64,000 bases of DNA, taken from assembly GCA_903904855.1 (NCBI GenBank), contig CAIVEH010000145.1, positions 1-64,000 on the forward strand, read 5' to 3'. The translations under genes were made by a program, and so were the position numbers. This DNA comes from an uncultured Bacteroidota bacterium. GTDB lineage: Bacteria; Bacteroidota; Bacteroidia; Chitinophagales; Chitinophagaceae. This document shows positions 1-4,258 of the stretch, in pieces. Position 1 is the stretch's first letter. Every line of letters starts with the position of its first letter. The notes beneath the pieces were generated by a model, which was not told the origin of the DNA, did not search any database, and saw only the letters and a program-made list of their open reading frames with translations.

Positions 1-548
1 GACAATTCTTGCTTCAAAAGCTTTGCCACATCTTTGTGCTCAGTAAGTAAATCCGCATCATCCTTACGGAACCCATCTTTTCTACCAACCTTACCACCTG
101 CTTTACGGTAACTATCATAACCAGACTTTATACGCTGGCGTATGGTCGTTTTCTCCATTTCGCTGACCGAGGTAAGTATTTGTATCATGAACTGAGATAG
201 CGGATTGATCTCGCATTTGTCGTTCAGCGTTTCTATGTTGTAATTCTTAATGTAAAGCGAAATGCAGTTGTCATTAAGTAGCTTTATCGTTTTCAGTACC
301 TCAATAGTATTCCTCCCGATTCTGGAGAGTTCCCAGGTTAATACCTTATCCACCTGGTTTGTCTTAACGAAGTCAATCATCTCCATCAGTTTCGGTCGGT
401 CTTCATTGTTCTTACCACCCGATACTTTTTCTTCAAATGTACCAACCACCTCATAACTCATCTTCCTGGCATATTCCATCAATTCCTCGGTTTGCCTGGT
501 ATAATCCTGGATGGTTGTAGAAACCCTACTGTAAATGACAACTTTCAT
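1..548 (-). CDS. Small serine recombinase (resolvase/invertase family), 3' end cut by window edge
   Basis: Reading the minus strand from an ATG at 546-548 gives at least 182 residues without a stop, running off the left edge. The N-terminus reads MKVVIYSRVSTTIQ, the resolvase signature, with Ser10 the expected nucleophile. The later motif TWELSRIGRNTIEVL matches the conserved LSRxGR helix of the catalytic domain, and a segment like EMEKTTIRQRIKSGYD fits the long E helix. The C-terminal part GRKDGFRKDDADLL looks like the start of the DNA-binding tail of the Hin/resolvase type. It probably performs resolution or inversion for the element at the left of the window. A well-formed promoter and a repeat array lie just upstream. 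Confidence 0.9.
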   Translation of the reverse strand, partial: MKVVIYSRVSTTIQDYTRQTEELMEYARKMSYEVVGTFEEKVSGGKNNEDRPKLMEMIDFVKTNQVDKVLTWELSRIGRNTIEVLKTIKLLNDNCISLYIKNYNIETLNDKCEINPLSQFMIQILTSVSEMEKTTIRQRIKSGYDSYRKAGGKVGRKDGFRKDDADLLTEHKDVAKLLKQEL

Positions 549-910: not shown

Positions 911-1849
911 TCATATATTCTTGTTTTCCCTTACCTTTTGATTAAAGCAAGTTATTAGTTCTTCTTTTCGGTCTGTAAACGCTCCGTCACTAAGTCGGCT
1001 ATACTTATTTTGATATTCTACAATTTTATCTATATGATGCTTGCCAACTCGCTCGGTAAAATGACCGAGTAAGATCCCTTCTTCAATATCTGCCTTAGTT
1101 TTTGTAATTCCCCCATTGGCTTGTACTCCTACAATCGTGTAGTATTCCCTGGGGTGCATTCCTGGTACATAGGGCATAGCTACTGTAGGTTGGAAGCTGA
1201 TCTTATGTATCTGATTAAACATATATTCCCATTTATCAACCAATAAGAGATAGTTTTCAGGAGTGGTTAGGTCATGCATGGTTACAATGCCATCACCCAA
1301 ATGATCTCTAACACGCTTAGTAATTCCATACTCGATCCTTAATAAGTTCAAGTTAGCATAAGTATCAGGTATTTGTACCCTTGTATTCAGCATTTCAAGT
1401 GTCTTATCATATATGGTTATACTTCGTGTACCATTACGGTAGAGAATACCGTTGTACTCATATTCTATTTTCTGAAAATATCTACAATGCCCAAAATATC
1501 GCTTGTAGATAAATGTGTTATTAGGCAGAACGATATTATCTGTAATATCAATCTTTGTTATTGTCAATCCAGTTACATCAAATCCAAGGTCTTCGCTCAG
1601 TTTAGTAGTAAAGGGTAGTATTTGGTTTAATTTTAATGTTTTCACATTGTTATTATTTAAGTATTTGGGTGCGCTACCTTCAATGTGTAACCCATGGTTA
1701 TCTATTTTGATACTGATATTATTTATTTTAAAGCTATGACTAAAATAGCCGTTATTGGCATTTAGTGTGTTAAATCCGTATTTATCTTCAAGATGTTTTA
1801 TGTCAACAATTGACGTATCAGTAGTAAATAGCTTAATGCTATCTATCAT
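911..1849 (-). CDS. Replication initiation protein, filamentous phage gpII/X family
   Basis: A 312-residue protein whose motifs line up in order with the phage/plasmid replication protein of the gene II/X family (M13 gpII). It begins MIDSIKL, has GLHIEGSAPKYLNNNNV (counterpart of the SPAKxLQGHNVFG motif), then ITKIDITDNI (SRIDATF-like), TRSITIYDKTLEM, and LLRIEYGITKRV (RFEARIKTR-like). This family nicks the origin to start rolling-circle replication. The motif comparison is from memory of the M13 protein, not a search. Its presence beside two recombinases marks this region as a replicating mobile element, either an inovirus-like prophage or an integrated rolling-circle plasmid. No Zot-like ATPase or coat protein is visible in the window. 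Confidence 0.75.
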   Translation of the reverse strand: MIDSIKLFTTDTSIVDIKHLEDKYGFNTLNANNGYFSHSFKINNISIKIDNHGLHIEGSAPKYLNNNNVKTLKLNQILPFTTKLSEDLGFDVTGLTITKIDITDNIVLPNNTFIYKRYFGHCRYFQKIEYEYNGILYRNGTRSITIYDKTLEMLNTRVQIPDTYANLNLLRIEYGITKRVRDHLGDGIVTMHDLTTPENYLLLVDKWEYMFNQIHKISFQPTVAMPYVPGMHPREYYTIVGVQANGGITKTKADIEEGILLGHFTERVGKHHIDKIVEYQNKYSRLSDGAFTDRKEELITCFNQKVRENKNI

Positions 1850-2578: not shown

Positions 2579-4225
2579 ATGATAAATGCACATTTCCAGG
2601 CTTACATAAAGCCAAAGAGCAACGAAGCTCCCGCAAATAGAAAAATAATTGGTTACACTCGTGTGAGTTCTAAACAACAAGCCGACAACTATAGCATAGC
2701 CGAACAGGAGAATGAGATACGAGCGTACGCCAAGAAAAATAATTATATACTAACCGAAATAATAGGTGGTACATATGAAAGTGCGTCTGGTGATTTGACC
2801 CGCAAAGAGTTTAAAAAATTATATGATACGATCAAGAAAAGCAAGAAACGTCCGTTTGCAATCGCCATAAAGTTTATCAATAGGTTTTCTCGAACAGGTG
2901 CTTCTGCTATTAGCATCGTTTCAGAGTTGGTTGATAAAATGGGGGTTCACTTGATTGAAACATCAACTGGTTTGTGTACAGTGAACGTTAAAGACAAGAT
3001 GCTGATATTCCATAAGCTACTGGAAGCCCAACAAGAAAATCAGGAGCGTCTTGAAAGGACTATGCCTGGCTTGAAAGCGTTTCTTAAACAAGGTAATAAG
3101 CTGGGTACTGTTCCATTTGGATATATACAGTTCGGTAAACGAGTAAAGGATTTTGAACGCATGAGTCGAACACAAATGATTAAAATTACCGAACAAGGTG
3201 AGATACTGAAATCTGCATGGCAATGGAAGTTACAAGGCGAAAGAGATACAGTAATTATATACAAACTTGAAAAACTTGGCGTAAAACTCAACCTAAAACA
3301 AATAGGTAAGATATTTCGTAATCCGTTCTATTGCGGTGTGTCGATAAATAAAATGTTGGATACACCAGTAAAAGGTAATTGGGAGCCTATGATCAGCCAA
3401 ACCAATTTCCTGAAGATCCAGGGTATAATTAAACCATCAAAAGTTGGTACTTACCAGGTATCAAGTACCGATGAAAATAGACCATTAGCGAGGTTTTTGG
3501 TATGTGCAAATTGTGAATCATACCTGACTGGCTATGAAGTGAAGAACAAGAAAATACACTACTATAAGTGTCCTAAATGTAACGGTGTGAACATGAACGT
3601 TAGCTCAACCAAACAATCGAGAAACAAAGGTCTAAATGACCATTTCATCGAGATGCTCAGAACAATAACCTTAAAACCTGAAGCTAAAGAACCTTTCAAT
3701 GAACTAATGAAAAGGCTATTTAAGGATCTAAACGGTGATACCATAAATGAGATACACGAACAAAATAATTCTATCCAAGACCTGAAAAATAAGTTGATGA
3801 ACCTTGAAGAAAAATACCTGTATGATAATGCTATTGATAAGGATGTTTATCTAAAACACCGAGCCAATTTGGAAGCCAAAATCTGGGAGGCTGAGCAAAA
3901 CGTTGCAGAATCAGCAAGCCTGTCATCTAACTTTGATGAATATCTTTTAAAAGCAACGGAAGTATGTGAAAACCTCAGTCAGTACTGGGTTTTAGGCGAT
4001 CATGACAACAAGCAAAGGATACAAAAAATGCTATTCCCAGAGGGTTTAGTGGTCGTTCCCGTAAGCAGGGTACTTCTAACCGATAATTTGAACCAAATTT
4101 TTAAGCTAATCCCTTGCCTGGAGAGCGTTTCAGAAGTTGATAAAAAAGAGAAAGCCAGCAAAATTGCTGACTTATCTCTTTCAGTAGCGAGGAGGAGACT
4201 TGAACTCCCGACCTCAGGGTTATGA
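2579..4225 (+). CDS. Large serine recombinase (integrase) ending inside tRNA-Met
   Basis: A 548-residue serine integrase. The catalytic domain starts at IIGYTRVSSKQQ with Ser30 as the expected nucleophile, followed by a KFINRFSRTG motif and the long helix region to about residue 170. A recombinase domain follows (KLGTVPFGYIQF), then a zinc ribbon with FLVCANCESYL and YYKCPKCNG (two CxxC pairs, about residues 308-338), and a coiled-coil segment around residues 400-445. Such enzymes catalyse unidirectional integration and excision. The last 13 residues (ARRRLELPTSGL is the translated T-arm and anticodon stem) and the stop are encoded by the antisense strand of the 3' half of the tRNA gene at 4185-4258, which marks this as the element/host junction. 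Confidence 0.95.
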   Translation: MINAHFQAYIKPKSNEAPANRKIIGYTRVSSKQQADNYSIAEQENEIRAYAKKNNYILTEIIGGTYESASGDLTRKEFKKLYDTIKKSKKRPFAIAIKFINRFSRTGASAISIVSELVDKMGVHLIETSTGLCTVNVKDKMLIFHKLLEAQQENQERLERTMPGLKAFLKQGNKLGTVPFGYIQFGKRVKDFERMSRTQMIKITEQGEILKSAWQWKLQGERDTVIIYKLEKLGVKLNLKQIGKIFRNPFYCGVSINKMLDTPVKGNWEPMISQTNFLKIQGIIKPSKVGTYQVSSTDENRPLARFLVCANCESYLTGYEVKNKKIHYYKCPKCNGVNMNVSSTKQSRNKGLNDHFIEMLRTITLKPEAKEPFNELMKRLFKDLNGDTINEIHEQNNSIQDLKNKLMNLEEKYLYDNAIDKDVYLKHRANLEAKIWEAEQNVAESASLSSNFDEYLLKATEVCENLSQYWVLGDHDNKQRIQKMLFPEGLVVVPVSRVLLTDNLNQIFKLIPCLESVSEVDKKEKASKIADLSLSVARRRLELPTSGL

Positions 4226-4258
4226 ATCCTGTGCTCTAACCACCTGAGCTACCTCGCC
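4185..4258 (-). tRNA. tRNA-Met (CAT), attachment site of the element
   Basis: The minus strand folds as a 74-nt tRNA: acceptor GGCGAGG/CCTCGCT (G-U at the first pair), D stem GCTC/GAGC, anticodon stem CAGGA/CCCTG with loop TTCATAA, T stem GGGAG/CTCCT with loop TTCAAGT, discriminator A. CCA is not encoded. Anticodon CAT at 4222-4224 fits elongator Met; tRNA-Ile2 also has CAT and cannot be excluded. The pair next to the anticodon loop is A-C, a mismatch. The recombinase reading frame enters from the 3' side and stops at the anticodon. Confidence 0.93.

Follow-up and report, generated by a model that had tools for sequence, protein, structure and literature searches.

A large serine recombinase gene that appears to carry its own attP and to be completed by the host tRNA gene at which its element inserts

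The present analysis concerns a large serine recombinase (LSR) gene that runs into a tRNA-Met gene of the opposite strand, close to the start of a 64,000-nucleotide stretch of DNA (hereafter referred to as the window; contig CAIVEH010000145.1 of assembly GCA_903904855.1, positions 1 to 64,000) from an uncultured Bacteroidota bacterium of the Chitinophagaceae. The window very probably holds the right end of an integrated element whose recombinase gene contains its own attP, such that integration at the 3' end of the tRNA gene exchanges the C-terminal tail of the enzyme for one encoded by the host. At the level of sequence, the location of attP inside the gene, the crossover at the tRNA 3' end, the tail swap, the range of targets and the selection on the native tail may be taken as shown, and the architecture as a whole appears close to certain. 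That the LSR itself performs the recombination, and that the T loop and the first 4 nt of the tRNA 3' end function in recognition, we infer from these patterns, and an effect of integration on the function of the enzyme is plausible.

Recombinase frames that end in tRNA and tmRNA genes

The LSR reading frame (2579-4225, ATG to TGA, 548 amino acids) was confirmed, and ARAGORN calls a tRNA-Met(CAT) on the minus strand at 4184-4258, for which an earlier note on this DNA had given 4185 as the start. As that note had claimed, the final 13 codons of the LSR (4184-4222) and its TGA (4223-4225) are antisense to the tRNA from the 3' end via the T arm to the anticodon, and the stop codon overlaps the anticodon, the complement of which (ATG) occupies 4222-4224. 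The protein carries an N-terminal catalytic domain (Pfam Resolvase, 5.5e-16, residues 23-173) with the resolvase serine motif, of which Y26, R28 and S30 are invariant in a 35-row alignment. It is followed by a Recombinase domain (1.7e-6, 28.7 bits, cut-off 21.1) and by a zinc ribbon with a coiled coil, represented by helices 386-414 and 421-446 in a structural model from 35 sequences (mean pLDDT 80.3, residues 519-548 below 50); the Zn_ribbon_recom match (6e-4, 20.6 bits) lies under its cut-off of 25.3 and therefore counts as weaker evidence. The segment 2579-4222 is 100% identical to G013:C25:245-1888, so that the gene is found in two genomes of the genus.

Related LSRs are present in 37 of 60 genomes, own genome included, and 116 distinct LSR 3' ends were gathered by a profile of the recombinase body, some of them near-identical or from the same genome and thus not all independent. 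An antisense tRNA or tmRNA gene starts at most 160 nt from the body end in 87 of the 116, and the LSR frame enters it in 86 of these 87, acquiring tRNA-coded tails of 3 to 491 residues. The GAA of the T loop lies in the identical phase in 86 of the 87 sites, at a distance from the frame anchor of 18 nt in 84, 21 nt in two and 17 nt in one. The targets called by ARAGORN (L227 excluded) comprise 22 anticodon types, with several CAT tRNAs lumped in the 'Met' class, and three tmRNAs, into whose 3' ends the frames of L047, L059 and L229 extend. Because 86 of the 87 related ends run into a tRNA or tmRNA in one frame, the overlap in the window is more than a chance event, and the window LSR is one instance of a widespread arrangement, which explains why many recombinase frames of these genomes terminate in peptides like 'TGIEPVT' that are coded by tRNA antisense. 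No tRNA was called at the other 29 ends, which on inspection comprise nine with a native tail (see below), seven with tRNA-like 'G.EP' ends and 13 that are of another kind or cut. Two related recombinases, L233 and L234, have frames of about 630 amino acids with a different extension beyond the body.

The source of the C-terminus is best seen where nearly the same enzyme occurs at different tRNA genes, a comparison that was made for 72 longer bodies of the 87 (Table 1). Bodies that are 94-99% identical at different tRNA types retain 26-30 of the 30 nt preceding the tRNA and diverge 4-10 nt into it. Since near-identical bodies part just inside different tRNAs, the host provides the end of the LSR, and the same enzyme is, on this comparison, predicted to acquire a different C-terminus at each tRNA.

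Table 1. Pairs of closely related recombinase bodies located at different tRNA or tmRNA genes
Pair	Body identity	Targets	Identical nt before the tRNA
L104/L105	99%	Arg/Lys	30/30
L061/L062	98%	Ala/Arg	30/30
L051/L083	98%	Arg/Met	30/30
L042/L070	98%	Asp/Ser	28/30
L078/L081	96%	Met/Glu	30/30
L047/L077	96%	tmRNA/Phe	30/30

Among recombinases with body identities of 60% or more that lie at different tRNA types, 72 of 73 pairs have the first 4 nt at the tRNA end in common, as do 252 of the 2305 remaining pairs (pairs without a long match included), the pairs being non-independent. This agreement may mean either that attP and attB are required to match or that the nucleotides are partly brought by the element, and the data fit both. 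The ends of two elements at tRNA-Ser genes share exactly 4 nt, with none to the left, which places their crossover within these 4 nt; the two ends of the window element share the 10 nt GTAGCGAGGA, so that for this element alone the limit of the crossover is 4184-4193. A crossover at the tRNA 3' end may thus be regarded as shown from the sequences compared.

The features of the locus are collected in Table 2. The hairpin on the 3' side of the tRNA has a predicted energy of -20.8 kcal/mol (z -5.6), and two terminator-like sites were found as against a mean of 0.7 in shuffled sequence. The two upstream genes in the table, for a replication protein and a small resolvase, are taken to be part of the element.

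Table 2. Features at the right end of the element in the window
Feature	Position	Strand	Basis or remark
Element-encoded LSR body, 535 codons	2579..4183	+	Pfam domains; extends up to the tRNA 3' end
Terminator-like hairpin 3' of the tRNA, element side	4142..4182	-	T-run on the minus strand; plus strand codes for the linker preceding the tail
Putative crossover segment GTAG, tRNA 3' end	4184..4187	.	4-nt overlap of two Ser elements; 72/73 related pairs
LSR 3' end within the tRNA, VARRRLELPTSGL + TGA	4184..4225	+	ORF, tRNA call and comparison with the far-end version
tRNA-Met(CAT), target gene, intact	4184..4258	-	ARAGORN; identical over the tRNA to the G026 copy
T-loop motif CTTGAAC, proposed zinc-domain site of one attB half	4199..4205	.	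GAA at +18 nt in 84/87 sites
Replication protein, Phage_CRI (G2P N-terminal), upstream	914..1849	-	Pfam 1.1e-5, 25.7 bits, cut-off 21.7
Small resolvase, truncated by the contig start, upstream	3..548	-	Pfam Resolvase 1.2e-32

Far ends of the elements and the native tail

Both ends are known for thirteen elements of 3.0 to 41.9 kb. In each of them the far end begins with 4-12 nt that match the tRNA 3' end, followed by a tail that is open in the recombinase frame; the two ends share these 4-12 nt from the anchor onward and 0-14 nt leftward, the 14-nt value belonging to L039, the left neighbour of which is the end of another element. The far end of L039 was found without any assumption of a tail, from a copy of the right-end hairpin followed by GTGCGGC and then an arm open in the recombinase frame. 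Further far ends were identified by their likeness to the L039 arm and subsequently by a scan for matches to the tRNA end that were followed by Ser-Asn at codons 8-9. The tails range from 20 to 50 codons and vary in sequence as well, and a hairpin resembling those found 3' of this tRNA in relatives often stands before the far end. These scans did not recover a far end for, e.g., L079, L069, L049, L081 and L051, some of which were covered over 10-20 kb only. A search with a guessed far-end pattern gave no match, and a long tRNA repeat at the far end was discarded as a candidate when searches of the own genome returned the window copy only. Far ends also occur in series (L147-L154 on G036:C12, L139-L142 on G010:C35), which suggests that elements inserted repeatedly at a single tRNA gene and that recombinases were lost. 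One element of the window type, L034 (G060:C14, 3.0 kb), has a recombinase match beginning at residue 51, its N-terminal catalytic part apparently lost.

Position 1 of the window is the start of the contig. A search of seven genomes with the tail of a relative identified a far end in the same genome (C171:1140-1211), in which GTAGCGAGG and the tail VARKIVISNLYADFRKIIDFYDYLVYKQQSENEP come after a hairpin. The 7.1-kb host flank on C171 and the flank to the left of the tRNA-Met gene in G026 are collinear, with eight matching frames of 53-93% identity, some of which overlap on opposite strands. G026 has LSR matches on other contigs and none on the tRNA-Met contig, and the C171 and window flanks when joined yield a site with the tRNA as in G026. 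The C171 far end is most likely the window element's own. The circular form of the gene would then encode 535 + 34 = 569 residues, compared with 548 in the integrated form. The final 10 residues and the stop of the window LSR are unlike the far-end version and are host-derived; the check proposed in the earlier note, whether attP keeps the same recombinase C-terminus, is answered in the negative, the far end predicting VARKIVISNLYADFRKIIDFYDYLVYKQQSENEP and a stop rather than VARRRLELPTSGL and a stop. That note's claim that a host tRNA completes and stops the LSR frame gains support from the element ends, the survey of 87 sites and the near-identical bodies at different tRNAs. Although the recombinases are 100% identical, the far-end tails of the window genome and G013 agree at only 27 of 34 residues, and the G013 far end may come from another copy.

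Genes in the predicted unintegrated form were also found. A profile of nine joined C-termini (A3) was searched in 395 genomes of the class, own genome included, and matched in 124; matches running past the junction were fetched, and most of the native-form genes obtained in this way consequently matched the tail part. In nine LSR ends the body continues in frame into a native tail and no tRNA is called; six of these frames are long, at 459-559 amino acids (L087, L205, L221, L230, L237 and L238), and three are shorter (L232, L235 and L236); L087 had been fetched earlier, with its tail not considered. Ser-Asn stands at codons 8-9 in five of the nine and Asn at codon 9 in eight. L237 is located in a one-contig genome with its attP unrecombined. 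Another native-form recombinase with an intact attP, L258 (G171:C1, about 2958 kb), lies in a one-contig genome of 5.1 Mb with no tRNA called in the surrounding 40 kb, while L253 (G008:C354) lies about 9 kb upstream of a family member at a tRNA-Glu gene, as if one element bore the other. An exact overlap of ends was absent from the four completely covered native-form contigs (L250, L252, L253 and L254). The attP-form gene was not found in 60 phage records (all below 60% identity; best 15 of the 60 listed), in 11 plasmid records, or in viral contigs, for which one search returned no locus and another 14 loci, 13 of them examined.

Substitutions were compared in five pairs of related tails from codon 10 onward, outside the likely DNA site. 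Pooled, 34.2 of 45.7 synonymous and 43.8 of 206.3 non-synonymous sites are changed, or 0.75 against 0.21 (a Fisher test on rounded counts gives about 3e-11, to be read only as a guide), while the other two frames give 0.18 against 0.33 and 0.26 against 0.36. The native tail is, judging from these substitutions, under selection at the protein level. A structural model of L087 with its native tail contains a low-confidence helix (530-546) after a disordered linker, which lends weak support to a helical tail on a flexible linker.

The spacing of the recognition motif is consistent with a serine integrase. Rutherford et al. (2013) describe, in the part of the paper available (PMC3783163), a zinc-domain motif that is 5 bp closer to the crossover in attB than in attP. 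In the native-form genes the GAA of TCGAAC lies at +23 (five of nine exactly), compared with +18 in attB, that is, 5 bp further from the crossover in attP. With the caveat that these genes were partly selected by tail likeness, the shift supports placing the zinc-domain site at the T loop and the crossover close to the end of the tRNA.

The proposed mechanism and its alternatives

In the proposed mechanism, the gene in the circular form would read across attP into the native tail (20-50 residues in those found, 34 in the window genome). The LSR would recombine attP with an attB at the 3' end of a tRNA gene, the conserved T loop being read by the zinc domain; integration would sever the gene at the crossover and strand the native tail at the element's far end, and host tRNA antisense would complete the body, stop codon included. 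Excision would reinstate the native gene.

Several observations weigh against this interpretation. A circular form was not seen, and the evidence comes from assemblies that are mostly drafts, some of them named as metagenome-assembled genomes; the two ends of the window element are on separate contigs with the middle unassembled. The C171 match (E 0.07) is weak alone, of 10 left flanks compared with C171 only that of G026 matched, and the right flank of the window had no match among 10 others, several of them only 1.5-4 kb long. In L227 (Leu), the sole exception among the 87, the LSR stops just short of the tRNA, and among the 116 LSR ends there are 13 that are cut or match neither form. The interpretation also leaves chromosomal native-form genes such as L237 unaccounted for. 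The Ser tail pair, one of the five, shows by itself no synonymous excess (0.32 against 0.30). Lastly, since Ser-Asn was required in the scans and the profile contained the tail, the conservation of this motif and part of the 5-bp shift are due to choice.

Serine integrases act as one-way switches, and how the one-way direction is maintained is a central question to which this family is relevant, as the host-derived tail may change the behaviour of the enzyme; we give about an even chance to the tail swap altering activity or direction. The native tail may be required for attP x attB recombination, the tRNA-tailed enzyme being weak or dead, so that integration would switch it off and exit would depend on another intact copy in the cell, as proposed for the archaeal suicidal integrases; this seems possible, if somewhat short of an even chance. 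The protein-level selection on the native tail points in this direction, as do the helix modelled in the L087 tail (low confidence) when set against the poorly modelled tRNA tail of the window LSR, and the common presence of several related LSRs in one genome. However, the catalytic, recombinase and zinc domains are retained in the integrated gene, so that the enzyme need not be dead, and the tail might be dispensable. A broader formulation, which we hold tentatively and with rather low confidence, is that of bacterial serine integrases that edit themselves: the universal T loop and a short address at the 3' end would open nearly any tRNA or tmRNA gene to insertion, the loss of the native tail would act as the direction switch and the host gene would write the end of the protein. 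The short address lowers its probability because the element might itself bring some of the 4 nt.

It is somewhat unlikely that attP lies in the gene merely for compactness, with the tail tolerated and its swap without effect; such neutrality would agree with the differences among native tails in length and sequence, but not with their excess of synonymous changes. Somewhat less likely still is an active tRNA-tailed enzyme of altered direction or site preference, for instance one allowing attL x attR excision, as reported for Mx8. Serine integrases fused to a directionality factor do favour attL x attR, according to the part of PMC5737554 available, but tRNA-coded tails so variable in length are hard to reconcile with a specific new function, and the loss of the native tail is their common factor.

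Very improbable is a far-end frame that represents a DNA site or a small gene open by coincidence, rather than an LSR tail. An attP half-site, on which DNA constraint is expected, probably occupies the first 27 nt, and the early far ends were chosen partly by peptide; on the other side stand the nine LSR ends with body and tail in one frame, the frame-specific substitutions in codons beyond the DNA site, and homology that gives out near the stop codon (G000 and G013 match across nt 1-107 of their left ends at 83% identity and not beyond, the tail frame and stop amounting to 105 nt).

Some tyrosine integrases use the anticodon region as their site. The earlier note had suggested that an A-C pair beside the anticodon loop might mark a crossover there. 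The pair is present (A31-C39), but relatives without the element share it: the tRNA matched in 60 of 60 genomes, own genome included, and the letters beside the anticodon are identical in all 34 rows from the 31 genomes among the matches listed (own included; the own and G013 rows repeated, L034 included), most of which lack a recombinase match at the site (E 1e-6). The A-C pair is native, an outcome that the note had itself named as refuting the mark. A crossover in the anticodon region is ruled out, its probability practically nil, by these rows together with the ends of the thirteen elements, which share no more than 4-12 nt from the tRNA 3' end onward, and the near-identical enzymes at different tRNAs, both of which place the crossover at that end.

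Comparison with known systems

The family is natural and widespread, and its integrated and free enzymes would differ by the C-terminus alone, so that the control of direction is testable by comparing the two natural forms. It also suggests a simple targeting rule for the insertion of DNA beside tRNA genes, and indicates that integrase genes which alter themselves may be neither archaeal only nor of the tyrosine type only.

In domain content the recombinase resembles the large serine integrases of the phiC31, Bxb1 and A118/LI type, which likewise possess Resolvase, Recombinase and zinc-ribbon domains; profile A4 matched the A118 integrase 4kis at 1.9e-15. The 5-bp shift of the zinc motif between attB and attP is, going by the text of PMC3783163 that is available, common to both. 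Unlike in those enzymes, attP here would lie within the integrase gene, the C-terminus would be exchanged and the 3' ends of many tRNA genes are targeted. In the open-licence literature searched, the best matches listed did not include a serine integrase whose own gene holds attP, and the portion of PMC12884075 available makes no mention of one.

Tyrosine-integrase islands of the Islander type likewise keep the tRNA whole and carry the displaced fragment at the far end (in the portion available of PMC4383910), whereas here only 4-12 nt are shared and the recombinase is a serine enzyme. The principle of an integrase gene altered by integration is already known from tyrosine integrases. The Mx8 integrase belongs to a recombinase family unrelated to the serine recombinases, and work by Tojo in 1996 is said to have placed the Mx8 site in a tRNA gene, with a 112/13-residue exchange. 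In this Myxococcus phage (IntP/IntR), as described in the available part of PMC6070905, attP lies inside int and a new 3' end is gained on integration, as here, with specificity changed and not lost; Mx8 represents one phage with two adjacent attB sites, compared with a family using many tRNA genes. In the archaeal 'suicidal' tyrosine integrases (SSV1, pTN3, pT26-2), according to the part of PMC8371274 available, attP is likewise in the gene and integration splits it, and such self-disrupting recombinases are called exclusive to archaea. There integration detaches the catalytic part and leaves fragments described as inactive (PMC8371274, same part), whereas here a short tail would be lost, the host would complete the frame and the catalytic domain remains whole. 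The present gene shares with both systems an attP that appears to lie within the coding sequence and to alter the gene on integration, and differs from both in carrying serine rather than tyrosine recombinase domains. The enzyme is accordingly classed as a large serine recombinase in an arrangement that works like those of Mx8 and the suicidal integrases and belongs to neither.
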